Assembly: GCF_002975405.1 (NCBI RefSeq)
Contig: NZ_PCPS01000004.1
Location: 124,001-188,000, forward strand
Source of the DNA: Arthrobacter sp. MYb229
Lineage (GTDB): Bacteria > Actinomycetota > Actinomycetes > Actinomycetales > Micrococcaceae
Reading direction: 5' to 3'
Length of the DNA stretch: 64,000 bases
Shown here in pieces: positions 2,728-41,621 of the stretch (positions within the stretch are counted from its first letter, which is position 1; every line of letters starts with the position of its first letter). A program made the translations under genes and the position numbers. The notes beneath the pieces are model-generated. The model was given only the letters and a program-made list of their open reading frames with translations. It had not been told where the DNA came from and did not search any database.

Positions 2728-3806
2728 CTTCTTTTCGCCTCGCGGAGCAAGAGCCAGATCAAATAAATGCCGCCTACGCTGACCGTGACCACGCCGACCG
2801 GTAGCGCGGTCTCCGGAACCAGGCGCTGGGCCATCAGATCGCTGAAAAGCAAGAGCACCGCACCGAGAATGGCCGATGAGCCCATGCGGACTCCCGCGCT
2901 GCGCGTTAAACGCCGGGCTACTTGGGGTGCGGCCAGGGCGATAAACGAAATAGGCCCGGCGGCGGCCGTGGCCAGTGCGGTGAAGCCGACGCCGACCACC
3001 ATCAGCAGGAGCCTGGCGGGCTCAACTCGAATGCCCAACGCGCTGGCGGCGTCGTCTCCCATCTCCAGCATGTGCATCCGCGGGGCCAGCATGGCGGCGG
3101 CGATGAAAAAGACGGTGACCGCGAGCAACGCCGGTTGTGCGTGCTCCCACCCCATCGCATTGAGCGACCCGGCGCCCCAGACGGCCGCGGACATCGCTTC
3201 TTCGAGCCCGGCACGCAGGATCAGCCAAGTATTCAGCGACGCGAGAATGGCGCTGAACGCAATCCCGACGATGATCAACCGGAAACCTTGGGACCCGCGG
3301 CGATAAGCCAAGAGATATACCAATGCAGCCGTCAGCAGGCCTCCGAGAAGTGCCCCAGCGGCAATCTGAAAATATCCTCCGCCAGCGAGAAAAATAACCG
3401 CCAAGGCGCCGGTGTATGCGCCGGTGTTGAACCCGATGATGTCCGGGCTGCCCAAAGGGTTCCGAGTCAGCGACTGGAAAATCGCTCCGCTGATACCCAA
3501 AGCCGCGCCGAGCGCCAGGGCCATGACTACCCGCGGCAAGCGCCAGGAGAGCACCACCAGCTCGCTCGAGCTGCTGCCGGTGCCGAGCAGCGCACGCAGA
3601 AGCTCTATGGCCGAGAAAGTTATTTCGCCTGTGGCTAGGGCCCAGAGCGCTAGCACGAGACCGAGCGCAGCAAAGATCGCGCAGACGATGATCGAACGGC
3701 GCTGCACGCGGAGCGAGAAGCGGCCGCCAGGCGATGAAAGCACCGTGTGCCCTGGCCCGAAATCCACGCGTTGAGCGGAAGCGAGAGTGTTGCCCGTGGT
3801 GGTCAT
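2724..3806 (-). CDS. FecCD-family iron-siderophore permease (second)
   Basis: A 360-residue polytopic permease of the FecCD family with about ten membrane spans. Family hallmarks are LTRNPLGSPDIIGFNTGA in the N-terminal third and GPISFIALAAPQVARRL near residue 290, the coupling region facing the ATPase. The ATG at 3806 overlaps the stop of the first permease gene by 4 nt (ATGA). It forms a heterodimeric channel with the product of 3803-4948. Confidence 0.92.
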   Translation of the reverse strand: MTTTGNTLASAQRVDFGPGHTVLSSPGGRFSLRVQRRSIIVCAIFAALGLVLALWALATGEITFSAIELLRALLGTGSSSSELVVLSWRLPRVVMALALGAALGISGAIFQSLTRNPLGSPDIIGFNTGAYTGALAVIFLAGGGYFQIAAGALLGGLLTAALVYLLAYRRGSQGFRLIIVGIAFSAILASLNTWLILRAGLEEAMSAAVWGAGSLNAMGWEHAQPALLAVTVFFIAAAMLAPRMHMLEMGDDAASALGIRVEPARLLLMVVGVGFTALATAAAGPISFIALAAPQVARRLTRSAGVRMGSSAILGAVLLLFSDLMAQRLVPETALPVGVVTVSVGGIYLIWLLLREAKRS

Positions 3807-4948
3807 AGCCCGCTGACCTGCTTTCGGCGGACCAGCCAGATCAGCACCGGCGCGCCCACGAAGGCCGTCACGATGCCGACCTGCAACTCACCGGGCGGAG
3901 CAACTACGCGGCCGATGACGTCCGAGACCAAAAGCAGCACCGGTCCCAACGCCAGGCTATAGAGGACAATCCACCGTTGATCCGCGCCGACGATCCATCG
4001 GGCGATGTGCGGAACCATCAGCCCCACGAACCCGATGGGGCCGGCAGCCGCGGTGGCGGCGCCGCACAATAATGTCACCGCAACGATGACCGCAACGCGG
4101 GTTCGCGTGACGTTGCTTCCCAATGCGCGGGCCATGTCCTCACCCAGCGAAACCGCATTGAGCGAGCGTGTGCAGAAAAAGGCCAGGCATAATCCTGCCA
4201 CGACAAAAGGCAGGATCACCCAGACCATATCCAAGGTCCGGTTGTTCAAGGTACCGGCGCCCCAAAACCGCATCCGGTCGAATGCCTCCGGGTTCAGCAA
4301 CGTGATGCCACTTGAGATCCCGCCGAGCATGGCGCCCAAGGCAACGCCCGAGAGGGTCAGCTTGATCGGTGTAGCGCCGGACCGTCCACGGGAGCCTATG
4401 AGATACACCAGCACGGTGGTGATGATTGCTCCACCGAATGCGAACCAGATGTAATCGGCAATGGAGACGATGCCGAATACGGCAACTGCAAGGACAACCG
4501 CGAAGGCGGCACCCGCGTTGACACCAAGAATTCCCGGGTCAGCTAGCGGATTGCGGGTCAAGGCCTGGATCAACGCGCCGCCCACGGCTAGCGCCAGCCC
4601 AGCCATGAGGCCGACCAACGTACGCGGTACGCGCAGTTCGTTGAGTATCACTAAATTTTCCTGGGTGCCCAGGCCTGCTAAACCCCGGAATACCTCGACG
4701 GCCGGAATCCACTTAGCGCCAACAGCGAGCGACAAGAGCACCGATACGCCGAGCGCTGCGAGTGCTAGCGCGAATCCAACCGCGCGGGTCGCATTGCTCG
4801 CAGCTAAACCGGTACGGGTTTCAGTTGAATTTGCTTCGGGGGCAGCAAGGCCAGGCAGGGACGCGACGGCCTCATCGGTCGCCGGAGCGGGTTCGACCCC
4901 TGGGACTAATTCCTCGGGCTCTGCGGAGATCTGCGTCGGAGTTCGCAT
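3803..4948 (-). CDS. FecCD-family iron-siderophore permease (first)
   Basis: A 381-residue FecCD permease and the first gene of the importer operon. LTRNPLADPGILGVNAGA and GPIGFVGLMVPHIARW are the family signatures. The start is set at ATG 4948 because AGAAGG stands 6 nt upstream; a longer reading to 4993 would put the start inside the iron box and adds no conserved residues. The N-terminal 65 residues are a variable cytoplasmic tail rich in E, P and A. The IdeR/DtxR-type box at 4963-4981 lies just upstream of the ribosome site, so the operon is probably repressed when iron is plentiful. Confidence 0.92.
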   Translation of the reverse strand: MRTPTQISAEPEELVPGVEPAPATDEAVASLPGLAAPEANSTETRTGLAASNATRAVGFALALAALGVSVLLSLAVGAKWIPAVEVFRGLAGLGTQENLVILNELRVPRTLVGLMAGLALAVGGALIQALTRNPLADPGILGVNAGAAFAVVLAVAVFGIVSIADYIWFAFGGAIITTVLVYLIGSRGRSGATPIKLTLSGVALGAMLGGISSGITLLNPEAFDRMRFWGAGTLNNRTLDMVWVILPFVVAGLCLAFFCTRSLNAVSLGEDMARALGSNVTRTRVAVIVAVTLLCGAATAAAGPIGFVGLMVPHIARWIVGADQRWIVLYSLALGPVLLLVSDVIGRVVAPPGELQVGIVTAFVGAPVLIWLVRRKQVSGL

Positions 4949-4962
4949 CAGACCTTCTTGAG

Positions 4963-4981
4963 TTAGGTAATGCTCACCTAT
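4963..4981 (-). promoter_or_regulatory. IdeR/DtxR-type iron box, importer operon
   Basis: TTAGGTAATGCTCACCTAT matches the 19-bp DtxR/IdeR consensus TTAGGTTAGGCTAACCTAA at 15 of 19 positions, with both outer TTAGGT and ACCTA half-sites kept. It sits 15 bp upstream of the chosen start of the first permease gene, where a bound iron-loaded repressor would block transcription. Confidence 0.8.
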
Positions 4982-5254
4982 CTGATGGCACAAAAGAAAA
5001 CAGTATCATCTTCTTATTCGGAAGTATCGCAAGATTACGACGGGGACCCCGTGGCCCCTCGGTCGAATAACCGGTCGCCGGCTTGGAATGATGGACGAGC
5101 TATGAAGAAATTCGGGTTGGAGGACCCAGTGTTGGGTGCCCTAACTAACTTCGCTGAAACGCCTTGCTCGAGCGGCAGGCGTACCGCGCTTCACGCGGTG
5201 TGCATGAAATGCTCTATTTGATCCATCGGCTGGCGCTGAGCAATTGCATTGAGA

Positions 5255-27982: not shown

Positions 27983-28420
27983 CTACTCGCCGAGCGCCGC
28001 GATTGCACGCACCGCGCGCGCGGCTTCGGCGCCCTTCGTGACGAAGTGCTCGAAGTAGAACTTTTCGTGCTCTTCGCTGGAGTGGAAGTGGTGCGGGGTC
28101 AGGCTCACCGAGAAGGTCGGCACATTCGTGTCCAGCTGCACGCGCATCAACCCATCGACAACCGCCTGAGCGACAAAATCGTGGCGGTAGATCCCGCCGT
28201 CGACTACTAGCGCGGCGGCCACCACGGCATCATACTTTTCCGACTGCGCTAGCCGCTTGGCCTGCAGCGGCATCTCGTAGGCACCAGGCACGGTGACCAC
28301 ATCGATGCCGTATTCAACACCGGAAGCATCCATATCTGCTTTGAACCCTGCCAGCGACTGGTCCACGATATCTGCATGCCAGCTGGCCTTGATGAATGCG
28401 ATATTTAGTGGCTTGCTCAT
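27983..28420 (-). CDS. ribH: Type II lumazine synthase (RibH2-like)
   Basis: A 145-residue 6,7-dimethyl-8-ribityllumazine synthase, which condenses a ribityl-uracil with 3,4-dihydroxybutanone phosphate in riboflavin synthesis. The sequence follows the decameric RibH2 type known from Brucella and Mesorhizobium: IAFIKASWHADIVDQSL, VPGAYEMPLQAKRLA, DGGIYRHDFVAQAV, and SVSLTPHHFHSSEEH, rather than the icosahedral GTVIRG type. ATG 28420 has AGGAGA 5 nt upstream. It stands alone, not in a rib operon, and no FMN riboswitch is visible upstream. Confidence 0.9.
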   Translation of the reverse strand: MSKPLNIAFIKASWHADIVDQSLAGFKADMDASGVEYGIDVVTVPGAYEMPLQAKRLAQSEKYDAVVAAALVVDGGIYRHDFVAQAVVDGLMRVQLDTNVPTFSVSLTPHHFHSSEEHEKFYFEHFVTKGAEAARAVRAIAALGE

Positions 28421-28824
28421 GTAATTCTCCTGTGTCAGTTTTTCTTGTATTAGGCAAAATCTCATCGGAGCCATTCGAACTGCTCAACGGCTCGGGCAGT
28501 CTGAAAACCAAGCTCTCCCTATCCAGCCTAGTGTCCTGCGTCTCATTCGCTTCAATGGCGGCGAGAATTGTTGTAACGATTGCTCTCCGCCGAGTGCCTA
28601 CCCCGTAGCAGCGCCAGCGGCACCGATCTGGAATCGATGGCTGGCCCGTTGTACTTGATGCCCGGCTAGTTCGGGGCAACCGGACTATTTTCCTGCGGCG
28701 TGCTGCACTAGGCTTAAATCGCCTCGGAATCGCGTCTGATCTCGACATCTTGTTCATCGCGACGCGCTGTGGAGTGCCATCCGGCGGAACCTGCCCCGAC
28801 AAGATCAAACCGAACGGAAACTTG
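28421..28824. other. Divergent intergenic region, ribH side
   Basis: 404 bp between ribH and the DinB-fold gene. I looked on the minus strand for the conserved RFN blocks of an FMN riboswitch and did not find them. A TAATAC on the minus strand near 28450 could be a ribH -10. Open frames running through here (for example 28314-28808 minus) lack support. Confidence 0.5.
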
Positions 28825-29503: not shown

Positions 29504-30526
29504 CTAGCGCCAGCCCAGCAGCGGAGCGACATGTTTGAGCACCGATTCGATAACGTGTGCGTTGTACTCGACTCCTAGCTGATTGGGCACGGTCAGCAGC
29601 AAGGTATCCGCCGCGGCAATGGCCTCATCCTCGGCCAGCGTCTTGGCCAGTTCATCGGGTTCTCCGGCATAGGACTTGCCGAAAATTGCGCGGGTTTTGG
29701 CGTCGATGTTGCCGATCTGGTCGGAGCTGTAGCGGTCGCGTCCGAAGTACTGCCAGTCCCGCTCATCGGTCAGGGCAAAGATGCTGCGGCTCACCGAGAC
29801 CCGCGGTTCGCGTGCATGGCCAGCGTCTTTCCATGCCTGTCGGTAGAGCTCGATTTGCTCGGCCTGCTGCACATGGAACGGTTTGCCGGATTCGTCGTCT
29901 TTCAGCGTGGAGCTTTGCAGGTTCATTCCAAGTTTCGCCGCCCACACGGCGGTGGCGTTCGAGCCCGAGCCCCACCAGATGCGCTCGCGCAAACCCTCGG
30001 AGTGAGGTTCTATGCGCAAGAGCCCCGGGGGATTGGGGAACATCGGCTTGGGGCTGGGCTGGGCGAATCCTTCTCCGGAGAGCACTTGGAGCAGACGCTC
30101 GGTATGCCGGCGTCCCATCTCGGCGTCGCTCTCGCCCTCATGCGGTTCGAAACCAAAATGGCGCCACCCGTCGATGACCTGTTCCGGTGAACCGCGGCTG
30201 ATGCCCAACTGCAGGCGGCGGTTGGAGATGAGGTCGGCGGATCCGGCGTCCTCGGCCATGTACAACGGGTTTTCGTAGCGCATGTCGATGACGCCGGTGC
30301 CGATTTCGATGCGGCTGGTGCGCGCTCCGATGGCGGCGAGCAGCGGGAAGGGGGATGCGTATTGCTGGGCGAAGTGGTGCACGCGGAAGTATGCGCCGTC
30401 CGCGCCGAGTTCCTCGGCCGCAACCGCTAGATCGATTGCTTGCAGCAGCGCATCCGAGGCACTGCGGGTTCCTGACTGTGGGTGATCAGTCCAATGCCCA
30501 AAGGACAAAAATCCGATGTTCTTCAT
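29504..30526 (-). CDS. LLM-class flavin-dependent oxidoreductase
   Basis: A 340-residue luciferase-like monooxygenase with TIM-barrel segments FLSFGHWTDHP, AVAAEELGADGAYFRVHHFAQQYASPFPLLAAIGART, IEIGTGVIDMRYENPLYMAEDAGSADLISNRRLQLGISRGSPEQ. It would use FMNH2 or F420 supplied by a partner reductase. Start ATG 30526 opens the first beta strand. It lies 60 bp after bioD in the same direction and could be read as the distal gene of the biotin operon, but may have its own promoter. Confidence 0.85.
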   Translation of the reverse strand: MKNIGFLSFGHWTDHPQSGTRSASDALLQAIDLAVAAEELGADGAYFRVHHFAQQYASPFPLLAAIGARTSRIEIGTGVIDMRYENPLYMAEDAGSADLISNRRLQLGISRGSPEQVIDGWRHFGFEPHEGESDAEMGRRHTERLLQVLSGEGFAQPSPKPMFPNPPGLLRIEPHSEGLRERIWWGSGSNATAVWAAKLGMNLQSSTLKDDESGKPFHVQQAEQIELYRQAWKDAGHAREPRVSVSRSIFALTDERDWQYFGRDRYSSDQIGNIDAKTRAIFGKSYAGEPDELAKTLAEDEAIAAADTLLLTVPNQLGVEYNAHVIESVLKHVAPLLGWR

Positions 30527-30585: not shown

Positions 30586-31296
30586 CTAGGCGGGAATCGG
30601 AGCCAGCGCACGGGCCGCTGCGGCCAGCGCCTCCGGGCGGCGTGCCGGATCGCGGACCAGATTTGCGGGCAGTCTCCCGGCGAAGCTCCACCCGAAACGG
30701 GTGGCTAAGGCCCGCAGACCCGCCAGATTGCATTCGGCAAGCTGCGTGGGGCGGTCCGGGTAGCTGCCCAGCACCAGCGTGCCGCGGGAGAAGCCGCGGG
30801 CCGCACAGGCCTCCAAGGTCAGCGCGGTGTGGTTCAGGGTTCCCAGGTCCGGGCGGGTGACGACCACCAGCTCCGCCGAGACGGCCGCGGCCAGATCAGC
30901 GATGGTTTCGCCCGCGGACGTCAGCTCGACCAAGAGCCCTCCGGCGCCCTCGACAAGCACCTCGTCATAGGCAGCTGCCAGCTCGCGGATCCGCCGCACG
31001 TGCTCGGCCAGGGGCGGCAGGACCTCGGCGGGGTCGGCGAATCCCGCGCACCGGGCCGCATCCAGCGGTGCCATCGGCGCACACAGCCGCACCCCCTCGG
31101 CGGTGCCCAGCCGCTCCGGGTGGCCAAGCCAGCCGGCCGCGTCTTGCACGTCTCCGGGCTGTCCGGGAAGCACACCGGTCTGCGCCGGCTTGTAGATCGC
31201 CGCCCGGGCACCGCGGGCCAGCGCCCGGGCGGCGAGCACGGCGGTGGCCACCGTCTTGCCCACCTCGGTGTCGGTTCCGGTGATGGCGTGGATCAT
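30586..31296 (-). CDS. bioD: ATP-dependent dethiobiotin synthetase
   Basis: A 236-residue P-loop enzyme that closes the ureido ring of dethiobiotin using CO2 and ATP. P-loop GTDTEVGKT at residues 7-15; conserved VEGAGGLLVELTSAGETIADLA (EGAGG Mg/ATP loop). The ATG overlaps the P450 stop by 4 nt (ATGA). A long frame continuing upstream on the same strand is the shadow of the P450 gene. Last bio gene of the bioB-A-F-P450-D operon. Confidence 0.93.
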   Translation of the reverse strand: MIHAITGTDTEVGKTVATAVLAARALARGARAAIYKPAQTGVLPGQPGDVQDAAGWLGHPERLGTAEGVRLCAPMAPLDAARCAGFADPAEVLPPLAEHVRRIRELAAAYDEVLVEGAGGLLVELTSAGETIADLAAAVSAELVVVTRPDLGTLNHTALTLEACAARGFSRGTLVLGSYPDRPTQLAECNLAGLRALATRFGWSFAGRLPANLVRDPARRPEALAAAARALAPIPA

Positions 31297-32471
31297 CGGT
31301 GGGTCCTTTCGAAGGGGAATCCAGTCGGCACCGCGACCGGCGCCTGGAAGGAGAGCAGGTGGGCGAAGCGTGGGGCCGCGCCGGCGGCTTCGAGGTCCGG
31401 AAGGCAACGGGCCGTTTCGGCGAGCACCAGTTCGGCCTCCATCCGGGCCAGGCCCGCCCCCAAGCAGCGGTGGACGCCATGGCCGAAGGCCAGCGAATCG
31501 TCGCCGCCGGTGCCGAGGATTCCGCCGGACAGGCGCAGCACCAGCTCCTCGCCGACGGCGAATTCGTGATCGCCGACGCGGGCGTCCACCGCGGCGATGC
31601 GCCGCCAGGTTGGCACCGAGGAGGCGACGGCCAACACCTCGCGCACCACGGCTTGGGCCGCGGCTGGTCCGGTGTCCGGGTCGGCGCAGGCGGCCCAGTG
31701 GCCCTCGCGCAGCGCCGCGTGCAGAGTGCTCTGGATGAGCATCGCGGTGGTCTCCTGTCCGGCGATCCCCAGGAAGTAGGCCAGCGAGCGGATTTGGCGT
31801 TCGGGAACTCCCGAGCGATGCAGCACGGCATAGAGGTTCGGCTCCTGGCTCCTGACCGCCTCGTGAACCGTCTGATCCAGCCAGGCATAGAATTCGGCGG
31901 CGCTGGCGGCGAGCACCAGCTGTCGTTCCTCCTCGGGCCACCCCCAGAACAATTCCAGCGAATCCTGGCTCCAGCGTTTGAGTTTTTCGGCCGGCGGCAC
32001 GCGCACCCCGGTCAGCACCGCCATGATTTCGACGGGGATCACCGCGGCCAGCTCTACGGCCAGATCCAGGGATTCCCCGTTGCGGTAGCGCGGTTCGAGC
32101 CGGGCGCAGATTTCCCGCACTCGTTCGGTGACCGGCTGGCGCTGCGACTGGACCTTGGCGGGGCTGAAGAATCCGGCGACGAGCCGGCGCACGGAGAGGT
32201 GTTCGCTGCCCGAGGCGCTGGCGAGCACCGGTGGCAGCGCGAATTTCACCGCGGCCAGGATCCGCAACGCGGCCGGGGTGAGGTTGATGGCGGTGCTCAG
32301 CGCGTTGGCCGTGGTGAATTCCCCGGGGCGGCGCAAGATGCCGCGCACCGTGTCCGGGTCCTCGACGCTGCGGTAGCGCCGGTTGATGGCTTCGGGAAAG
32401 GCCGCGGGCAGCGGGCCGGCCAGCGGGGCGTCGGCCAAGCTGCCGGCGGTGGGGGCGTAGGGGCAATTCAT
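31293..32471 (-). CDS. Cytochrome P450 embedded in the biotin operon
   Basis: A 392-residue soluble class P450 of the CYP107-like type. The I-helix oxygen motif is AGQETT (237-242) and the heme loop is FGHGVHRCLG with thiolate Cys336. The K-helix ExxR motif is E278-V-L-A281: the arginine is replaced by alanine, which is rare. ATG overlaps bioF by 4 nt and the stop overlaps bioD by 4 nt, so it is an integral operon member. By position it resembles Bacillus BioI, which cleaves fatty acyl-ACP to pimeloyl-ACP; that role here is an inference. No redox partner gene is nearby. Confidence 0.88.
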   Translation of the reverse strand: MNCPYAPTAGSLADAPLAGPLPAAFPEAINRRYRSVEDPDTVRGILRRPGEFTTANALSTAINLTPAALRILAAVKFALPPVLASASGSEHLSVRRLVAGFFSPAKVQSQRQPVTERVREICARLEPRYRNGESLDLAVELAAVIPVEIMAVLTGVRVPPAEKLKRWSQDSLELFWGWPEEERQLVLAASAAEFYAWLDQTVHEAVRSQEPNLYAVLHRSGVPERQIRSLAYFLGIAGQETTAMLIQSTLHAALREGHWAACADPDTGPAAAQAVVREVLAVASSVPTWRRIAAVDARVGDHEFAVGEELVLRLSGGILGTGGDDSLAFGHGVHRCLGAGLARMEAELVLAETARCLPDLEAAGAAPRFAHLLSFQAPVAVPTGFPFERTHR

Positions 32472-33643
32472 GATTCCTCCTCGATGGCCGCCCGGGCTAC
32501 CTTCCCGATGGCCGTGGACAGTTCGGCCGGTTGCTGGTGGGCGTGGGCGGTCAGCCGGATACGGGAGATTCCGTCGGGGACGCTGGGCGGGCGGAAGCAG
32601 GATACCGCGATGCCCTGCGCGGCCAGGGTGGCGGCGGCCCGCACGGCGGCCGCGGCGCTGGGCATCTTCACCGAGTGGATCGGTCCGGCCCCGGATTCCA
32701 CCCGCCCGGCCAGTTCCGGGTACTCCGCCAACAGACCGCGGATCAACCGCTGGTTCCGGGCCAGCGCGGCAAGCCGGGCCCGGTCCGCCAAGCGCAGGGC
32801 GGCCAAGGCACCGCCGGCGGCGGCGGGGGCCAGCGCGGTGTCGAAGATGAAGGTGCGGGCGGTATTGAGCAGATGTTCGCGCAGCGCTGCGGCAGCCGGG
32901 CCGCCGAAAAGCACCGCTCCGCCTTGGGCGCCCAGCGACTTGGACAGGGTTGCGGTGGTGATTACCTGGCCGCGAGCTTCGAGGCCGGCGGCGCGCAGCG
33001 CCGACCCGGATTCGCTGGCGGCCAGCGAGTGGGCCTCATCCACCAGCAGCAGCGCGCCGAACTCCCGGCACGATGCTGCCAGCTCGGTTAGCGGCGCAGC
33101 GTCGCCGAAAACCGAGTAAACCGATTCGACGGCCAGCAGCACCCGAGGCTTGGGGTGCGCGCTGCTGTGGTTGGCTTGGAGCAGCCGCCGGAAGCTGGCC
33201 AGGTCGTTGTGCCCGGCGGTGGCCACAGCCGCGCCGGAGAGCCTGGCCCCGTCGACCAGGCTGGCATGGGCATGCTCGTCCAGGATGAACAGGCTGCCCG
33301 GACCGCCCAGGGAGCCGAGCACCCCGAGGTTGGCGGTATACCCGCTGGAGAAGACCAAGGCGGCATCCCGGTGCGTATACCGGCACAGCGCGGCCTCCAG
33401 CTCCCGGTGCACTGCTAGAGTTCCGCTGGCCATTCGGCTTGCACCGGCCCCGGTGCCGTAGCTTTCCAGGGTTTCGGCGGCGGCCCGGAGCACCTCGGGA
33501 TGATTCGAGAGACCCAGATAGTCGTTGGAGGCCAAATCAATGGATCCGGCCCGCAGCGCATCGCTGCGGCGCAGGCCGCGGCGCTCGCGCACGGTGGCTC
33601 GGGCGGACAGCCAGCGCTCCCAGCCGGAGGTATTCTCAGCCAT
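32468..33643 (-). CDS. bioF: 8-amino-7-oxononanoate synthase
   Basis: A 391-residue PLP enzyme condensing pimeloyl-CoA/ACP with alanine, the first step of the biotin ring assembly. Alpha-oxoamine synthase features: DLASNDYLGLSNHP, GTGAGASRMASGTLAVHRELE, the aspartate in LLVDEAHSLA and the PLP lysine in TATLSKSLGAQGG. Overlaps bioA by 8 nt and the P450 gene by 4 nt. The start ATG 33643 sits inside the bioA 3' end, consistent with coupled translation. Confidence 0.93.
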   Translation of the reverse strand: MAENTSGWERWLSARATVRERRGLRRSDALRAGSIDLASNDYLGLSNHPEVLRAAAETLESYGTGAGASRMASGTLAVHRELEAALCRYTHRDAALVFSSGYTANLGVLGSLGGPGSLFILDEHAHASLVDGARLSGAAVATAGHNDLASFRRLLQANHSSAHPKPRVLLAVESVYSVFGDAAPLTELAASCREFGALLLVDEAHSLAASESGSALRAAGLEARGQVITTATLSKSLGAQGGAVLFGGPAAAALREHLLNTARTFIFDTALAPAAAGGALAALRLADRARLAALARNQRLIRGLLAEYPELAGRVESGAGPIHSVKMPSAAAAVRAAATLAAQGIAVSCFRPPSVPDGISRIRLTAHAHQQPAELSTAIGKVARAAIEEES

Positions 33644-34994
33644 GGACCTGCTCCACCGCGGCCAGCAGTCCGCGGCCGAGCGCGGCGAGCTCTTCGGGGG
33701 TGCTGATATAGGGAGGCATGACGTAGACCAGATCGCGGAACGGGCGCACCCAGACCCCCTGCGCTACCGCCGCTCGAGTCACTTCGGGTACGTCAACCGG
33801 GGCGTGAAGTTGGATGACTCCAACCCCGCCGAGCACCCGCACGTCCTTGACTGATGCCAGTCCGGCCGCCGGGGCGAGCCCGGTGCGCAGCCCGGATTCC
33901 AGCGCGGTAACCTGGGCCTGCCAGGGTGCCGCCGGTGGGCTGCCGGCCGGTGCCCCGACGAGCAGGTCAAGCGAGGCGCAGGCCACCGCGCAGGCCAGCG
34001 GGTTGCCCATGAAGGTCGGCCCATGCAGCAGCGCGGACCCGGCGGACCGAGTTCCGCTGGCAAGCGCGGAGCCGATTTTGCTGGTGCAAAGCATCGCGGC
34101 CAGGGTGAGATACCCTCCGGTCAGCGCCTTGCCCACGCACATGATGTCCGGGACGATGCCTGCATGCGCCACGGCGAACAGCTCGCCGGTGCGTCCGAAT
34201 CCGGTGGCGATTTCATCGGCAATCAGCGGCAGGTCGTGTTCGTCGGCGAGTTCGCGCAGGATGCCGAGCGCCGCCGGCGGGTAGATGTGCATCCCTCCGG
34301 CGCCCTGGAGCACCGGTTCGCACACGATCCCGGCCAGCTGTGCGGAGTTTTCGGAGATCAATGCGCGCACCGTGCATTCCCAATCGGCCAGCTCGGAGAC
34401 GAGGTATTCCCAGTGCCCCTGTGCGCTGCGGCGTGCGCTCGGGGGCTTGGGCAGGAACAGCTCGGCGGAGGAGCGCGGCGCGAAAGCCGCGTGCATTCCG
34501 TCCTGCGGGTCGCAGATGCCCATGGTGGCGAAGGTGTCCCCGTGGTAGCCGCCGCGCAGGGCCGCGAAGCGGTGGCGCGTGGTGCGGCCCTTTGCCTCCT
34601 GGTATTGGAGGGCGAGCTTCAGGGCCACCTCGACGCTGATCGACCCGGAATCGGCGAGGAACACGTGGCGCAGCTCGCCCGGGGCCAGGTCCACCAGCCG
34701 CTCGGCCAATTCGATGGCCGGGGCGTGGGTCAGCCCGCCGAACATCACATGGCTGAATTTCTCCAGCTGCCCGCGCGCCGCGGCATCCAGCGCCGGGTTG
34801 CGGTAGCCGTGCACGGCTGACCACCACGAGGACATCCCGTCGATCACCTCGCGGCGGATGCCGGTTTCGTCTTCGAGGACCAGCCGGGCGCCGCGTGCCT
34901 CGGTGACCGCGTAGCCTGCCCCGGCATCAAGCGCGGCATAGGGGTGCCAGAGCAATCCTGCGTCGCGGGAGAGCAGGCTGGCATCGGTGGGCAT
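33636..34994 (-). CDS. bioA: Adenosylmethionine-8-amino-7-oxononanoate aminotransferase
   Basis: A 452-residue class III aminotransferase giving 7,8-diaminononanoate from KAPA with S-adenosylmethionine as amino donor. Signatures: GMSSWWSAVHGYRNP and SHVMFGGLTHAPAIELAERL (substrate side), YHGDTFATMGICDP, LIADEIATGFGRTGELFA and the PLP lysine in CVGKALTGGYLTLAA. Start ATG 34994 overlaps the bioB stop by one nucleotide (TGATG). The longer reading to 35126 lies within bioB and is rejected. Confidence 0.93.
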   Translation of the reverse strand: MPTDASLLSRDAGLLWHPYAALDAGAGYAVTEARGARLVLEDETGIRREVIDGMSSWWSAVHGYRNPALDAAARGQLEKFSHVMFGGLTHAPAIELAERLVDLAPGELRHVFLADSGSISVEVALKLALQYQEAKGRTTRHRFAALRGGYHGDTFATMGICDPQDGMHAAFAPRSSAELFLPKPPSARRSAQGHWEYLVSELADWECTVRALISENSAQLAGIVCEPVLQGAGGMHIYPPAALGILRELADEHDLPLIADEIATGFGRTGELFAVAHAGIVPDIMCVGKALTGGYLTLAAMLCTSKIGSALASGTRSAGSALLHGPTFMGNPLACAVACASLDLLVGAPAGSPPAAPWQAQVTALESGLRTGLAPAAGLASVKDVRVLGGVGVIQLHAPVDVPEVTRAAVAQGVWVRPFRDLVYVMPPYISTPEELAALGRGLLAAVEQVHG

Positions 34995-36229
34995 CACGCG
35001 TTGGGGTTCTCTGCGGTCCCGGCGCCGCGGCGGCGCAGCACCGGTTCGGTCTCGCCGGTGCCGCCACCGGAGGCCGCTTTGCCGCAGGCCGCCGAGGCCG
35101 CGGAGGAGCAGCAGGATCCGGCGCACCCGGCCGCCGCGGCATTGCCTGCGTCCGCTGGTTGGCGGGCGGCGTGGGCGGCGGCTGCGTGCAGGGTCTGGGC
35201 GATCTGCGCGGTGTTTTTGCCCTCCTGGCCCAGCACCACGAATCCGGCGTCGGCGATCATCGCCAGATCGGCGCGCGCATCCTGGCCTTCACTGGTCAGG
35301 TAGTCGCCCAGGAAGAGCGAATTGGCCACTTCCAGCGCGGTGGACTGCAGGGAGCGCAGGTGCATTTCTCGGCCGGCGGCGATGCGCAGTTCCTTGTCTG
35401 GACAGGCCAGACGAACCAGTGCGAGGATGCGCAGGCAAGCCAGCGGGGTGAGGTTCCAAGTTCCTTCCAGCGGAGTGCCGTCAAAGGGCATCAGGAAATT
35501 GACCGGAATTGAGTCGGTATCCAACGCACGCAGCGCGAAGACCGCTTCGATGAGCTGGTCGGTGCTTTCGCCCATGCCGACAATGAGTCCAGAACAGGGG
35601 GAGAGGCCTGCCCCCTTGGCCTGTTCGACGGTGGCTATGCGCTCCTGGTAGCTGTGTGTGCTGCAGATTTCCGGGTAGAGGGATTCTGCGGTGTTGAGAT
35701 TGTGGTTGTAGGCATCGGCGCCGGCCGTCTTGAGCTGTTCGGCCTGTCCGCCTTTGAGGATGCCCAGGCAAGCGCAGACCTCTACCTGCGGATGTTCTTC
35801 TTTGAGCTGGTCAATCATGGTGCTTACGCGATTGACATCCCGGTCGGTGGGTCCTTTGCCCGAAGCCACCAAGCAGACTCGCGAGGCACCTGCGGCAATG
35901 CCAAGTCCGGCCTGGCGGACCGCTTCGTCTGGTTTGAGCCAGGTGTATTTCAGGATTTCTGCCTTGGATCCCAGGCGTTGCGAGCAGTAGGTGCAGTCTT
36001 CCGGGCACAATCCAGATTTGAGGTTCACCAAATAGTTCACCTTCACGGTGTTGGAGAAGTGCTTCCTGCGTAGCCGGCCGGCTGCCGTGACGAGCGTTAG
36101 TGTCTGCTCATCGGATGTGGCCAGGATAGCGCGGGACTCGGACGCGGTCAGGCGGTGCCCTTCGCTAATCCGTGCGGCGAGGGCAAAGGGGTCAAGCGCG
36201 GTGCGCTTCGGGCCGGTTAGTGTTGGCAT
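34994..36229 (-). CDS. bioB: Biotin synthase with Cys-rich C-terminal tail
   Basis: A 411-residue radical-SAM enzyme inserting sulfur into dethiobiotin. The SAM cluster motif is C75-P-E-D-C79-T-Y-C82; later [21 protein letters not shown] and [14 protein letters not shown] belong to the auxiliary cluster and substrate site. Beyond about residue 345, where E. coli BioB ends, a low-complexity A/G tail carries GCAGSCC and AACGK before ending [19 protein letters not shown] lies 6-7 nt before ATG 36229, and a TTG directly before it (36232) is a less likely start. First gene of the operon; two BioQ-like sites lie upstream. Confidence 0.93.
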
Positions 36230-36243
36230 CAAAAATCTCCTGT

Positions 36244-36256
36244 TGAACAGTGTTCA
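36244..36256. promoter_or_regulatory. BioQ-like operator, proximal
   Basis: TGAACAGTGTTCA, a 13-bp TGAAC-N3-GTTCA palindrome 14 bp upstream of the bioB start, matching the half-site form TGAAC-N3-GTT reported for the actinobacterial biotin repressor BioQ. Confidence 0.7.
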
Positions 36257-36296: not shown

Positions 36297-36309
36297 TGAA
36301 CACTGTTCA
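36297..36309. promoter_or_regulatory. BioQ-like operator, distal
   Basis: TGAACACTGTTCA, differing from the proximal site only in the three central bases. Centre-to-centre distance is 53 bp, about five helical turns, so two repressor dimers would lie on one DNA face around the intervening promoter. Confidence 0.7.
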
Positions 36310-36389: not shown

Positions 36390-38741
36390 CTAAACCGGAG
36401 AAACCACCTGAACCAAGGGATTGTCCAAATCGCCGGCATAGAGCAACCCGCCGGATTGATCCGAAAGATCCAGCATCTGCTGGTTATTTCGCAGTTGCAG
36501 TCTGTTCAGGCAGGAGAGCGGGAAGCTGTCGGCAAACAGGCCCAAGGCCTCGAAGCGGTCTGCAAAATCAGGATGCTGTTCCCGGTAGTTCAACAGGCTT
36601 TCGGTGACGACCTGCCAGAATTCGGCTTCCGGAAGCAAGTCTTCGGCATCCAATAACGGGGCGAGGAAGCGGAAGAAGGAATCAAAAACATCGGTGAATA
36701 TCGAAAGCACCGGGTCGCCACCGGTGCGCACCCGACGAATTGTTTCCGGAAGTTCTACGCGGTCCGAGAGCACCGCAATTTCTTCGCCCAGGTCCTTGAG
36801 CAGCACCCGCTGCACCGCCCCGTCGCGCAGAACCAGGATGATGTTCTCGCCGTGCGGCATGAACACCAAGTCATAGGCCGCGAGGCAATGCACCAATGGA
36901 GCCAGATAGGCGTCCAGGTATTGGTTAAGCCACACCTTCGGTTCAAGTCCGCTGCGGCGGATAAGCGCCGCGGCGTAGCTCTTGCCGTGGGCATCGACAT
37001 GGAGCAAGCTGGCCATCGTGGCAAGGGTTTCGCCCGGTTCCAGCATGTCGATGGGCGACTCACGCCAGAGCGCGGCAAGCATCTTGCGCTGTGGTGCGCT
37101 GGGCGTGGTGGCCGCCTCGAACTGCTGGTTTCGATATCCGACTGCCGCGACCTCGCGCAGCAACGCTACCGGTTGCGAGGCGAGTACCGGATCCGCGGCG
37201 AAGAGCTCATAAAGCCACTGATTGATGGCCGGGGTGACCTTCATATAGTCGGCGCTGAGTCCGCGCATGAACCCCATGTTAAGAATTGACATCGCGGTCT
37301 TGACATAGTGCTTGCGCGGTGAGGTGACATTGAAGAATGTGCGTATCGACTGTTGCGCCTGATACTCGTCCGCAGAATATCCCAGCCAAATCAACTGACC
37401 ACGAGCAATGTCGTTGGCAAAGGTGGTGGACAGCCGGTTCTCCCACTGCCAGGGGTGGACCGGAAGATAAATGTATTGCGCAGGATCGAGTTCGGTGCCG
37501 GCCAGGCGCCGGGAGAGGTGCCGATCCAATGTCGCTTTGGCTTCACCGCCCAGTTCTTGTTCAAGCAACGACTGGTAGTCCAGCCCGTCGATGGAGTCGA
37601 ATGAGGCCTGTGAAATATGCGCGGCAACCCAACCGAGCCGGATAGCGGATCCGGTTTCCGGCGCATAACGCAGGTAGTCGGAGCTTCCTACGCCGATGCG
37701 CCCATTATTGGCCACGAAGCACGGATGCCCCTCGGTCATGGAGGATTCGATGCGCTGGAAGGATTCTGCCGGGCTGCCGGTGGCTTCGGCAAGCTGTGTG
37801 CTGTCGTGGAGCGCATGCGCCTGCTTGTAGCAATGGCTGCCTAGCGTGCTGTTTAGCTCCTCTAGATAAGTGGGGAGCTGTGCCTCGCTGAGCGTGAGTT
37901 CGGTGGCGAAAAGGGTGACAAAATCCAATACGTCTACGTCGCCACCGTGCCAGCCCTCGGCGGCCTGGATTAGATGTTCAACCGATGACTGCGAGATCTG
38001 CCAGTGATTCAGCGCGTAGCGTTGGGCGGTAAATTCGTAGCGGTGTCCCTGCTTTTCGACCCGGTAACGGTCCTCTCCCAGGGGGAGCGGCTCCAGCAGG
38101 CGCTCGTGGCTGAATTCGCCTAGGGCCTTGGCCAGAACATGCCTATTCGCCCGTTCCCAGCGGGCCGGACTTAAGTGGTTGGCGCCGGCTGATATCCCGG
38201 TGGTGCGCTCAAAATCCTCGCGGGTACAAATCGAAAGCAACGCCTGCTTGGGACCTTGCGGCTCATCAAGCGTGACTTCCTTCAGCGGCTGTAAGCCGAC
38301 GCGCGAGTTGAGAGCTTGAATCGCCTTGTTCCGTACATCGGGTTCGACCACCACCCGTTCAATTCCCGGTTGCGCGAAAGCGTGCCGGATGGCCGCACCG
38401 AGGGCATGCAAGGTAAACCCGGTCTCGACTTTCCCCGCGGGGACCGGAGCAAGGAAGTGCAGCCCGCGGTCTCCACGGACATACGGGTACTTTCCCGCGA
38501 GCGTGGATGTCGAGGGATCGTAGAGTTCAACCAGGAAGCGTGGTTCACCGCGAAGCTCTCCAAGGAGCACCTCATAGTTGGGGAGCTCCAGCAGTCCGCG
38601 ATATTCGGTTTCAACCTCGTCAAGGCTCGCGGTGGCCATTCCCCAATAGCGGGCATGCTCGGTGGCGATCCAGGAGTGCAATAGCTCAGCGTCGGAGGGC
38701 AGCTGAATGCTGCGGAAGGTAAATGAGTCGTAGGTCGTCAT
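36390..38741 (-). CDS. Fused acyltransferase / NIS siderophore synthetase (DfoC-like)
   Basis: A 783-residue fusion. Residues 1-190 form a GNAT-type acyltransferase (FRSIQLPSDAELLHSWIATEHARYWGM ... ERVVVEPDVRNKAIQALNSRVGL) that would succinylate or acetylate N-hydroxycadaverine. The rest is an IucA/IucC NIS synthetase (EGHPCFVANNGRIGVGSSDY, LPVHPWQWEN, SPRKHYVKTAMSILNMGFMRG, FMPHGENIILVL) that ATP-dependently joins hydroxamate units. In Streptomyces these are separate DesC and DesD; in Erwinia they are fused as DfoC. ATG 38741 has AGGAG 5 nt upstream and follows the hydroxylase stop by 7 bp. Product is probably a desferrioxamine- or bisucaberin-type siderophore. Confidence 0.9.
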   Translation of the reverse strand: MTTYDSFTFRSIQLPSDAELLHSWIATEHARYWGMATASLDEVETEYRGLLELPNYEVLLGELRGEPRFLVELYDPSTSTLAGKYPYVRGDRGLHFLAPVPAGKVETGFTLHALGAAIRHAFAQPGIERVVVEPDVRNKAIQALNSRVGLQPLKEVTLDEPQGPKQALLSICTREDFERTTGISAGANHLSPARWERANRHVLAKALGEFSHERLLEPLPLGEDRYRVEKQGHRYEFTAQRYALNHWQISQSSVEHLIQAAEGWHGGDVDVLDFVTLFATELTLSEAQLPTYLEELNSTLGSHCYKQAHALHDSTQLAEATGSPAESFQRIESSMTEGHPCFVANNGRIGVGSSDYLRYAPETGSAIRLGWVAAHISQASFDSIDGLDYQSLLEQELGGEAKATLDRHLSRRLAGTELDPAQYIYLPVHPWQWENRLSTTFANDIARGQLIWLGYSADEYQAQQSIRTFFNVTSPRKHYVKTAMSILNMGFMRGLSADYMKVTPAINQWLYELFAADPVLASQPVALLREVAAVGYRNQQFEAATTPSAPQRKMLAALWRESPIDMLEPGETLATMASLLHVDAHGKSYAAALIRRSGLEPKVWLNQYLDAYLAPLVHCLAAYDLVFMPHGENIILVLRDGAVQRVLLKDLGEEIAVLSDRVELPETIRRVRTGGDPVLSIFTDVFDSFFRFLAPLLDAEDLLPEAEFWQVVTESLLNYREQHPDFADRFEALGLFADSFPLSCLNRLQLRNNQQMLDLSDQSGGLLYAGDLDNPLVQVVSPV

Positions 38742-38748
38742 GGGGCTC

Positions 38749-40104
38749 CTAGTCTTGGGCCGAGATTGGCTGCGGTTGGGAAGTTGGCAAGTTCTCCAGC
38801 GATGCGGCACCGAACCGTTGGAAGGAGATGCGCTCCTCGACTCGGTAGACCTCGCGCCCGGCAATGCGGTTGATGAGTACCGAATTCCTGTAGGCGCCCA
38901 TGCCGAGATCCGGGGCGGTGAATCCGTGCGTGTGCAGTTCAGCGTTTTGCACGAAGATGTCGTGGTTCGTGCCTACCGAGTAGTTGCGGTCCACGTCCAG
39001 GCGGCCGTCGGGCAGGCGGGTGATTCGGTCTTCGAGGCCTTCGAGGAAGTCTGGTGTGCCGTTGCGGTAGCCAGTGGCAAGGACCAGCGCGTCGGTGAGG
39101 AATGCGAGATTCTCCTTTTCCCGTTCGTGGTGCAGCTCGACAAGGATCGCTCCGTCCTGAGGGGCCACGGCTGTTGCGGCGCATCCTGTGCGCAGGTGAA
39201 TGGGGGCCGGAGAAGTCACGCTGCGCTGGTAGAGCTCTTCATGTATTTCATCGATCAGGTCGGCATTGATGCCCTTGTACAGGCCTTTTTGCGCCTTGGA
39301 CAGCGCGTCGCGCTCCGAGATCGGCAGGGCATGGAAGTGGTCAATATATTCTGGCGAAGTCATTTCCAAGGTCAGCTTCGTATACTCCAGCGGGAAGAAA
39401 CGCTCGGAGCGTGTCGCCCATACCAAATGGTCTTGTTCCGGCAGGTTGCGCAGCAGGTCGAGGAAGATTTCCGCGGCGCTCTGTCCACTGCCCAGCACCG
39501 TGACGACCTTGGGCGTCTGCTCGGCCTTTGGCTCAATGATGCTCTGCCGTGAATGCAGGTACTCGGAGGAATGGGTCACCGAGCTCGTGGACAGCAACTG
39601 CTCGTCGACAAAGTCCGGGAGATAGGGCTGGGAACCGGTGCCGAGCACCAGCTTGTCCGCGCTGAAATGGGTCAGGCCTCGATCGGTGAGCACCGAAAGC
39701 TGGTAGGCGCCGTCCGCAAATTCGGCAGAAAGTACGCGATGTCCGAAGCGGACACTGGGCAGCAGTTGCGCAGCCCACGCTAGATAGTCGCTGTATTCGT
39801 TGCGCAGCGCGTAGAAGTTTTCGCGGATGTAGAACGGGTAGATTCGCCCCTTTTCCTTCAGATAGTTCAGGAAGGAAAACTTGTTGGTGGGATCTGCGAG
39901 CGTGACAAGATCTGCCATGAAGGGCACCTGCAGGTGCGCGCCGTCCAGCATCATGCCCGGGTGCCACACGAAGTTGTCGCTGGCCTCCAGCACCGCGACC
40001 TTCAACTCCGGGAGCGGGTCGGTGAGGGCAGCGAACCCTAGATTGAAGGGGCCAGCGCCAATGGCGATCACATCAAAGTGCTCCTGGGCTAATCCACGGT
40101 TCAT
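38749..40104 (-). CDS. desB: Lysine/cadaverine N-hydroxylase
   Basis: A 451-residue flavin N-monooxygenase (IucD/PvdA/DesB family) that hydroxylates the terminal amine of cadaverine (or lysine) with FAD, NADPH and O2. The FAD-binding segment is VIAIGAGPFNLGFAAL near residue 13, then WHPGMMLDGAHLQVPFMADLVTLADPTNKFSFLNYLKEKGR, NADPH loop VLGSGQSAAEIFLDLL and the closing ATGYRNGTPDFL. ATG overlaps the decarboxylase stop by 4 nt. Middle gene of the siderophore operon. Confidence 0.92.
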   Translation of the reverse strand: MNRGLAQEHFDVIAIGAGPFNLGFAALTDPLPELKVAVLEASDNFVWHPGMMLDGAHLQVPFMADLVTLADPTNKFSFLNYLKEKGRIYPFYIRENFYALRNEYSDYLAWAAQLLPSVRFGHRVLSAEFADGAYQLSVLTDRGLTHFSADKLVLGTGSQPYLPDFVDEQLLSTSSVTHSSEYLHSRQSIIEPKAEQTPKVVTVLGSGQSAAEIFLDLLRNLPEQDHLVWATRSERFFPLEYTKLTLEMTSPEYIDHFHALPISERDALSKAQKGLYKGINADLIDEIHEELYQRSVTSPAPIHLRTGCAATAVAPQDGAILVELHHEREKENLAFLTDALVLATGYRNGTPDFLEGLEDRITRLPDGRLDVDRNYSVGTNHDIFVQNAELHTHGFTAPDLGMGAYRNSVLINRIAGREVYRVEERISFQRFGAASLENLPTSQPQPISAQD

Positions 40105-41621
40105 GCGCGAGCTCCTTCTAAGCGTTCGAGCAGCAAGTCATTGCCGACGCGGCAAATTGCGTCGAGTATCTCGGTCAGGTCTTTCATGGTGGTATTCGGG
40201 TTCAGCAAGGTCAGCTTGAGCACGCGCTGACCGTCCACGGTGGTGGCAGCGATCATCGCTTCGCCGGTGCGGTAGAGCCGCTGGCGAATCTGGTTAGTCA
40301 GTTCATTCATTTCGGAGCAATTCAGGTGGCTGCCGGGATCTTTGAAGCTGAAGACCAAGGTGCTCAGTTGCACCGGGGCCGCCAGCTCCAGCTGCGGCCG
40401 GAGAGAGACCTCGGCCTCGAGGGATTCGGCGAGTTCGATCACCCGGTCGAACATGGCACCCAGACGCACCGCCCCAAGTGTGCGGAGGGTAACCCAAAGC
40501 TTCAGCGCATCGAAGCGCCGAGTGGTCTGCAGCGACTTGTCGACCTGGTTGGGGGTCTGCTGGGCTTGGGACTTCGGGTTCAGGTATTCGGCGTAGTGGA
40601 CAATGGATTCGAAGGAATCTGCCTCGCGCAGGATCAAGGCGCTGGAACCTATTGGCTGGAAGAAGGACTTGTGGAAGTCCACGGTCACCGAGTCTGCAAG
40701 CTCTATGCCCGACAGCCGTTCGCGGTGCGAGGAGGAAAGCAGCAGTCCACCGCCATATGCGGCGTCGACGTGGAACCATGCGCCGACCTCATTGGCCAGG
40801 GCAGCTATGGGTCCCAGCGGATCGATGGCCCCGAAATCGGTGGTTCCCGCGGTCGCCGAGATCGCCATCGGAACCAATCCACGATTGATATCGCGGGCAA
40901 TCTGCTCGCGTAACTTGTCGGCGTCCATCCGGTGGTGGCCGTCGGTTTCAATGCCGACGGCGGCCTCATGCCCCAGCCCCAGCATCATCGCTGCGTTAGA
41001 GATACTGAAGTGGGCATCTTGTGAGGTATAGATGCGCAGGTTCTGCAGCCGCTGAGGCAAGGAGCCGGAGGTTTTCGACACCGCGGCGTTGCGGGCGATC
41101 AACATGGCTTGCAGATTGGACTGGGTGCCACCGGAGGTGAAGATGCCATCCGCGGCGAGTTGCGGGAATCCAATGAGCTGCGCGGTCCACGCGGTGAGGC
41201 GACGCTCAATGAGCGTGGCCCCGGCGCTCTGGTCAAAGGTATCCATTGAGGTGTTCAGGCTGGTGACGAATGCTTCGGCGGCCACCGCAGGAATTACCAC
41301 CGGGCAATTGAGATGCGCGGCGTATTTCGGGTGATGGAAATAGACGGCGTCACGCAGGTAGATCTTTTTCAGCTCGTCAAAAGACTCGGCGTTGCTCCCA
41401 AGCGGTGAGTCGAGGTCGATGGCATCGACCAGGCCTTGCAGATCCTCCGGCGAGGGGCCGGTGGTGGGTGATTCGACGGCGGCTAGCTGATCGGTGACCC
41501 GCAACAGTGCCTCTCGGGCCTCGGACTCATAATGATCTAAGGTGCCCGAGCACAGCAATGAGTCATCAAAAAGCTGCGAGTCAAACAGGGGGATGTGCAG
41601 GGTCTCAAGAGAGGTTCCCAC
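40101..41621 (-). CDS. desA: PLP-dependent lysine decarboxylase (DesA/DfoJ-like)
   Basis: A 506-residue group II decarboxylase expected to convert lysine to cadaverine, the siderophore backbone. Family features: FTSGGTQSNLQAMLIARNAA, SQDAHFSISNAAMMLGLG, WFHVDAAYGGGLLLS (PLP aspartate) and the PLP lysine in TVDFHKSFFQPIGSSALI. GTG start at 41621 with GAGGAG 7 nt upstream. First gene of the operon, preceded by the iron box at 41650-41668. Diaminobutyrate decarboxylase activity is the alternative, less likely given the next gene. Confidence 0.9.
   Translation of the reverse strand: MGTSLETLHIPLFDSQLFDDSLLCSGTLDHYESEAREALLRVTDQLAAVESPTTGPSPEDLQGLVDAIDLDSPLGSNAESFDELKKIYLRDAVYFHHPKYAAHLNCPVVIPAVAAEAFVTSLNTSMDTFDQSAGATLIERRLTAWTAQLIGFPQLAADGIFTSGGTQSNLQAMLIARNAAVSKTSGSLPQRLQNLRIYTSQDAHFSISNAAMMLGLGHEAAVGIETDGHHRMDADKLREQIARDINRGLVPMAISATAGTTDFGAIDPLGPIAALANEVGAWFHVDAAYGGGLLLSSSHRERLSGIELADSVTVDFHKSFFQPIGSSALILREADSFESIVHYAEYLNPKSQAQQTPNQVDKSLQTTRRFDALKLWVTLRTLGAVRLGAMFDRVIELAESLEAEVSLRPQLELAAPVQLSTLVFSFKDPGSHLNCSEMNELTNQIRQRLYRTGEAMIAATTVDGQRVLKLTLLNPNTTMKDLTEILDAICRVGNDLLLERLEGARA

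Follow-up and report, generated by a model that had tools for sequence, protein, structure and literature searches.

A cytochrome P450 within a biotin operon

The window analysed here, a stretch of 64,000 nt from Arthrobacter sp. MYb229 (GCF_002975405.1, NZ_PCPS01000004.1, 124,001-188,000), carries a biotin operon with the gene order bioB-bioA-bioF-P450-bioD, all on the minus strand (Table 1). The fourth gene encodes a cytochrome P450 which, by analogy with the Bacillus enzyme BioI, probably makes the pimeloyl thioester for BioF. The host genome (4.0 Mb, 23 contigs) is rated 100% complete and, going by the P450, the closest named relatives are Glutamicibacter nicotianae and its kin. All four bio genes are backed by NCBIfam models, with bioF alone scoring below its cut-off. 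The bioA gene starts with GTG, an alternative ATG being possible at 34994, and it overlaps bioB by 4 nt, or by 1 nt if the ATG is used; bioA and bioF overlap by 8 nt, and the P450 gene overlaps both bioF and bioD by 4 nt (ATGA in each case). The original prediction for this locus had described five genes overlapping by 1-8 nt, with the P450 as a fixed member of the operon and no bioC, bioH, bioW or bioZ in the window. The coordinates bear out the overlaps. Likewise, none of the four genes was named by NCBIfam models among the 39 other open reading frames (ORFs) scanned in the window (E<=1e-30 for 10 ORFs and 1e-40 for 29 ORFs, smaller ORFs lying outside the scan).

The fixed membership of the P450 in the operon is confirmed in its relatives. 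All 30 of the close family loci fetched carry bioA-bioF-P450-bioD. A pattern scan of named species gave 134 confirmed relatives, the best 80 of which were analysed; these and the 30 family loci are partly the same genomes. Biotin genes lie beside the P450 in 80/80 named loci (best 80 of 134), with at least three biotin genes in 77/80, and the 3/80 that show one biotin neighbour include two at contig ends. The order is bioF-P450-bioD in 49/80 and bioF-bioD-P450 in 28/80. Carriers in the Micrococcaceae include Glutamicibacter, Paeniglutamicibacter, Arthrobacter, Citricoccus, Nesterenkonia, Kocuria, Micrococcus, Rothia and others, and carriers beyond it are found in the Intrasporangiaceae, Ornithinimicrobiaceae and Microbacteriaceae and in one Propionibacterium metagenome-assembled genome (MAG). 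A second type of BioB, mostly 339 aa long and 35-39% identical to the window BioB, occurs in 27/80 loci, all (among L115-L153) from Arthrobacter, Pseudarthrobacter or Paenarthrobacter; here the P450 is kept and lies after bioD.

At class level, 15/296 genomes pass E 1e-50 for the P450. Three were already known (G000, G009, G265) and five have the gene near biotin genes, in the orders bioA-F-D-B-P450 (G621), bioB-A-P450 (G549) and bioF-D-P450 (G567), or separated from bioD-bioF by ~2 and ~4 kb that contain other genes (G601 and G692). No biotin gene was found in the 7-8 kb read outwards, or as far as the contig reached, in G210, G522, G537, G539, G561 and G672, with one of two matches read in G561; G710 was read only 1.5 kb out. 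The order-level genome G437 has bioB-A-F-D-P450. In two loci of family f53 (L194 8176-10026 and L201 6805-8853), a biotin-related P450 was seen by eye directly after a methyltransferase-like gene.

Association of the P450 with BioF

A close homologue of the P450 (at least 44% identity) was found in 44 genomes of a family sample of 149, with a separate distant set at 32% identity or less, and our split was placed between the two. True BioF was divided from its paralogues in the same way (>=47% against <=36% identity, also our own division), and G036 and G144, whose BioF is partial or broken, were still counted as having it. Scoring was limited to the first 4 to 17 candidates in each genome, which makes individual absences less certain. 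The P450 is present in 43 of the 54 genomes with BioF but in only 1 of the 95 without it (Fisher p 7e-26, which for 149 related genomes is not a true probability), and in that lone genome it sits at a contig end. The P450 tracks BioF far more closely than BioB: 20 genomes are positive for BioB and negative for BioF, and one only of these has the P450 (the contig-end case). Corynebacterium glutamicum is also described as lacking BioF (PMC3398298). At order level the P450 occurs in 11/396 genomes, all 11 of which have BioF. Moreover, 5 changes suffice to explain the presence of the P450 on a BioF tree with 91 rows, whereas shuffled labels need 23.6 on average and 0/500 shuffles were as low; this shows clustering of labels only and is helped by near-copies, although 24 near-duplicate loci and BioF pieces of <280 aa (including G036) were omitted from the tree.

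In eight genomes BioF and the P450 are fused, forming one open frame without a stop between them. These are Micrococcus lacusdianchii, M. lylae and G139 of the same genus, Rothia koreensis, Kocuria sp. 36 and its relative G118, G013 and the Propionibacterium MAG; the fusion was read ten times, L027 and L097 being the same genome, as are L029 and L116. Seven of the eight fusions are in the P450 tree (G139 was left out), where at least three changes of fusion state are needed. A structure model of the fusion, from 8 sequences, is too poor for the domains to be placed (predicted local distance difference test, pLDDT, 75.5; predicted template modelling score, pTM, 0.54). Natural fusions of biotin enzymes are described as few, BioAD and BioWF being those named (PMC9544090). 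By comparison across these genomes, a role for the P450 in pimelate supply appears well supported.

Fold of the P450 and flanks of the operon

The AlphaFold model of the window protein has a P450 fold (pLDDT 93.8, pTM 0.93), and its match to PF00067 is strongest over the Cys loop. Fold search and VIA-align both place CreJ and CYP116B P450s as the closest solved structures. CreJ scored 97.8 bits in the sequence search, with 26% identity and Z 40.4, and CYP116B5 reached Z 40.5 (VIA). Foldseek returned CreJ, CYP116B and one self-sufficient P450, followed by complexes of BioI with acyl-acyl carrier protein (acyl-ACP) at 21% identity, whilst the VIA Z of BioI (34.2) is tied with those of CYP109A2 (34.9) and P450cin (33.7). 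Neither method singles out BioI among P450 structures. In the predicted fold the acid-alcohol pair of the I-helix and the Cys ligand are both present. The Cys and the motif residues of the FGxGxHRCLG loop are, like AGQETT, invariant in 64/64 sequences, as would be expected of an oxygen-activating heme enzyme. As far as the sequences go, this P450 is a structurally odd family, separate from BioI and travelling with BioF.

The biotin-linked P450s of G621, G549, G601, G692 and G437 keep ExxR and the 51-residue spacing between the WRR motif and the Cys loop. For this reason the sequences suggest that the P450 was still of standard type when it joined the biotin genes and that the changes in the K-helix and meander came later.

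Table 1. Features of the biotin operon, its upstream boxes and the P450 motifs, in window coordinates.
Feature	Position	Strand	Details
bioB, biotin synthase, Cys-rich C-terminal tail	34994..36229	-	TIGR00433, 378.8 bits (cut-off 225)
bioA, 7,8-diaminopelargonic acid (DAPA) aminotransferase	33636..34997	-	TIGR00508, 491.9 bits (cut-off 405)
bioF	32468..33643	-	TIGR00858 best match, 304.2 bits, below cut-off 426.45
Cytochrome P450 of biotin-operon family, 392 aa	31293..32471	-	PF00067, 29.2 bits (cut-off 22.8)
bioD, dethiobiotin synthase	30586..31296	-	TIGR00347, 108.7 bits (cut-off 83.3)
BioQ-type box TGAACAGTGTTCA, proximal	36244..36256	.	exact match, G000:C18:160244-160256
BioQ-type box TGAACACTGTTCA, distal	36297..36309	.	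exact match, G000:C18:160297-160309
I-helix AGQETT, residues 237-242	31746..31763	-	30/30 family loci; invariant in 64/64
Heme-thiolate loop FGHGVHRCLG, residues 329-338, axial Cys336	31458..31487	-	30/30
K-helix ExxR site, here E278-V-L-A281, arginine lost	31629..31640	-	alignment to CreJ EVLR

Two palindromes, TGAACASTGTTCA, lie upstream of bioB and are the sole exact matches in the whole genome. The motif is identical to the predicted BioQ site TGAAC-N3-GTTCA (PMC3398298). A one-mismatch site, with a two-mismatch site 20 nt away, precedes genes for an ABC ATPase and an EcfT-like protein, which we read as a putative bioMN; no biotin gene was recognised among the ORFs of the only other one-mismatch site (C19:54870). 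A box with one mismatch at most was found upstream of bioB in 27/70 named loci against 0/70 coding control stretches of equal length, the 70 being those of the 80 in which bioB is on the plus strand with enough room upstream. With two mismatches allowed the genome shows 84 sites (18 for the reversed control), and weak boxes of this kind were therefore not used. By its motif, the P450 operon appears to carry boxes of the BioQ-regulon type. None of the scored loci with the second BioB type has such a box.

The Cys-rich tail of the window BioB is encoded at 34994-35220. BioB of the same type in relatives mostly ends R-x-RGAGT-x(2-3)-(P/A)N(A/V) (by eye), and at least three Cys fall within the last 75 residues in 21 of the 71 loci read, one of which (L111) was misread; the second BioB type is without the Cys-rich tail. 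Downstream of the operon, an ORF at 29504-30526, which we read as a luciferase-like flavin oxidoreductase, begins ~60 nt beyond bioD in the same orientation and could share the transcript of the operon; it has no NCBIfam match at E 1e-30. Nearby is a lumazine synthase of PRK12419 type (27983-28474; 225.6 bits, cut-off 160). On the other side, a siderophore-type locus (36390-41621) adjoins the operon, with matches to SbnF, histamine N-monooxygenase and diaminobutyrate decarboxylase that are all below cut-off, and a ferric siderophore-type ABC importer is found near the start of the window (1840-4993).

Supply of the pimeloyl chain and comparison with known systems

In Bacillus, BioI supplies pimeloyl-ACP by cleavage of acyl-ACP. 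By analogy, the window P450 would act on a long-chain acyl group carried by free acyl carrier protein, hydroxylating adjacent carbons of the chain and cleaving between them to give pimeloyl-ACP, which would then pass to BioF and be condensed with alanine; in some species the P450 and BioF would act as one polypeptide. We infer the substrate, the product, the carbon-carbon cleavage, the redox partner, the heme content and the need for the gene. The genome has a single ACP gene (57.7 bits, cut-off 70.45), which lies between FabH- and FabF-like ORFs (by eye), and acyl-ACP substrates should therefore exist.

Several observations weigh against this reading. The operon encodes no redox partner, and BioI is described as dispensable in B. 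subtilis (PMC12915131). The arginine of ExxR is kept in only 3/30 family loci and in 4/79 named loci, being lost in the other 75 (L108 of the 80 gave no scorable motif). Moreover, the canonical K'/meander appears by eye to be replaced in 87/88 biotin-linked rows, L172 being the sole canonical-looking one; L108 and L172 were incomplete in the motif comparison and L172 was then read by hand. The stretch from WRR to the Cys loop measures 37 residues in the window protein against 51 in five CreJ-like rows, and 33-44 in 61/88 biotin-linked rows, the longer ones being unrelated in sequence (by eye). ExxR is said to stabilise the meander, and changes to it inactivated, and misfolded, most P450s tried (PMC3990721, PMC3599690). 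The P450 is absent from 11/54 of the family genomes with BioF, whose operons were read directly. Six of these genomes fall in BioF branches without the P450 and G036 is too short to place, but G133 (96% complete; L054 2655-7321) has bioBAFD without the P450 inside the P450 clade and is a natural knock-out, and the P450-less group G114/G097/G144, with bioF broken in G144, adjoins P450 carriers. In the order sample, 26/37 BioF genomes are without the P450, although five of these 26 matches reach just 37-42% identity and could represent other enzymes. With so many BioF genomes lacking the P450, either BioF can be fed otherwise or the P450-less strains need pimelate. No pimelate gene was recognised near the P450-less bio operons, among the ORFs of 12 loci (crude filter and eye) or 10 proteins elsewhere (Pfam). 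In two P450-less operons of another family (L158 4773-5327 and L159 1841-2539), an NADPH-dependent FMN reductase-like gene was seen by eye between bioB and bioA. Finally, the host genome has a Tam-like methyltransferase (C1:740035-740820; 243.7 bits, cut-off 297). In favour of the reading, no family genome (0/149) has a BioC (TIGR02072) above cut-off, in a survey that made no search for BioH, BioZ or BioE. The search of genomes for rival genes that had been proposed as a check on the locus found no BioC above cut-off but did find the Tam-like methyltransferase.

The Tam-like gene opens an explanation in which the chain is made by a scattered route of BioC-BioH type, with generic hydrolases serving as BioH and the P450 as an accessory that, for example, tunes or salvages chains. 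Tam is described as the BioC of Mycobacterium, in which neither the BioC nor the BioH gene is part of the bio operon (PMC9302846). The best BioC match in the host genome (68.3 bits, cut-off 184.95) falls within the Tam-like gene, Tam matches occur in 40/44 P450 genomes and 11/54 BioF genomes lack the P450. However, Tam is found in 112/149 genomes with no link to BioF (p 0.11) and is equally common where biotin genes are lacking (66/94 genomes with neither BioF nor P450). Four P450 genomes (G020, G076, G090, G128) have no Tam match at E 1e-20, and an accessory would hardly be expected to be fused to BioF in eight genomes. We consider this route unlikely. The distribution of Tam was unhelpful as a discriminator, P450 genomes not being separated from the others by it.

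A distinctly unlikely alternative is that the P450 yields free pimelate from fatty acids and that an unrecognised coenzyme A (CoA) or ACP ligase activates it for BioF. Such genomes generally have many acyl-CoA ligases, which counts in its favour, and a review names both free fatty acids and acyl-ACP as substrates that BioI cleaves (PMC11089781). However, BioW (TIGR01204) is absent from 149/149 family genomes in a search whose control found those of B. subtilis and M. jannaschii, and there is no ligase in the operon or the fusions; because the P450 is fused directly to BioF, a thioester product is suggested instead. The changed motifs and the fusions would also suit a P450 that has decayed and lost its catalysis and that stabilises BioF or regulates it, for instance as a sensor of heme or redox state, but this is very improbable. 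The I-helix and Cys loop are invariant, which a scaffold would not need, and Streptomyces P450s of the CYP157 family are reported as functional without the ExxR arginine (PMC3990721, PMC3599690). The arginine is still present in the fused forms of Micrococcus, Kocuria and Rothia, although not in those of G013 and the Propionibacterium MAG. Decay of a one-off gene was rejected, the motif changes recurring in 75/79 relatives. The joint loss of the arginine and the meander is coherent, as the one is described as stabilising the other, and by its predicted fold and Cys loop the window protein is still filed as a cytochrome P450 despite the altered ExxR, because exceptions to that motif are known. 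That the P450 serves some other pathway and is merely co-transcribed with the biotin genes is barely credible. Some class-level relatives do lie away from biotin genes (e.g. G672), but biotin neighbours are found at all 80 named loci analysed, there are the fusions besides, and the P450 has been retained through changes in gene order (28/80 bioF-bioD-P450) and in the type of BioB.

Production of a pimeloyl thioester by the P450 thus remains the explanation we favour. The original prediction of a BioI-like P450 route is supported in part: for the role, given the tracking of BioF, the eight fusions and the lack of BioW and BioC above cut-off in all 149 genomes, but not for BioI itself, CreJ and CYP116B being closer. 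Tentatively, a P450 route to pimelate in several actinomycete families may have arisen independently of Bacillus BioI: a CreJ/CYP116-like P450 with standard motifs would have joined the biotin genes, lost the K-helix arginine and the meander as a dedicated partner of BioF, and been fused repeatedly into a single enzyme that both cleaves the acyl chain and carries out the condensation, with direct transfer of the pimeloyl group. It is in the source of the pimeloyl chain that biotin synthesis varies and, if the proposal is true, a BioF-bound P450 would fill this step in a common group of bacteria (Arthrobacter, Glutamicibacter, Paeniglutamicibacter, Kocuria, Micrococcus, Rothia and others). The fusions would be a convenient system for coupling chain cleavage to the formation of 7-keto-8-aminopelargonic acid (KAPA), and the P450 a natural test of how much of a P450 core can be lost. 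No description of a P450 in Micrococcales biotin operons, or of a BioF-P450 fusion, was found in the titles, abstracts and passages of the open-licence literature (subscription papers being outside this scope), nor did the passages on the vitamin needs of Arthrobacter give growth data for a strain known to carry the P450.

Amongst known systems, the biotin-operon P450 shares with CreJ the WRR motif after the K helix. The CreJ-like rows differ in keeping ExxR and the meander and, used as the root of the tree, they branch separately. We know of no link between CreJ or CYP116B P450s and biotin. The PDB title of the CreJ structure names an aryl phosphate as present in it. BioI (CYP107H1 of B. subtilis) is likewise a P450 of a biotin operon, and the proposed product, pimeloyl-ACP, would be the same. 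However, its 21% identity to the window P450 over the fold alignment is well short of the over 40% described for members of one CYP family (PMC3599690), and it ranks 20th in the sequence search, with 59.8 bits against 97.8 for CreJ. Orthology to BioI was rejected on identity, rank and the nearer CreJ/CYP116B. Moreover, in contrast to BioI, the P450 described here has no BioW partner, adjoins or is fused with BioF, and has lost the ExxR arginine and the meander; BioI itself has been called unique to B. subtilis (PMC12915131), or is described as confined to a small number of microorganisms. Streptomyces CYP157 resembles the biotin P450 in lacking the ExxR arginine whilst being reported as functional; by its description only ExxR is changed, whereas here the K'/meander is replaced as well (PMC3990721, PMC3599690).

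The arrangement of a P450 followed by a BioF-like enzyme has been described in another actinobacterium. In a Streptomyces pathway, MkpG, called a BioI homologue, and the BioF-like MkpD act in series, and deletion of either mkpG or mkpD abolished the product (PMC13336041). This is a precedent for the chemistry and so lowers the novelty of the present case, but by its description the mkp cluster belongs to secondary metabolism and forms alpha-methyl-KAPA (PMC13336041). The BioWF fusion, as described, also joins a maker of pimeloyl thioester to BioF (PMC9544090); there BioW is an ATP-dependent ligase N-terminal of BioF, whereas here the partner is a predicted oxygenase at its C-terminal side.

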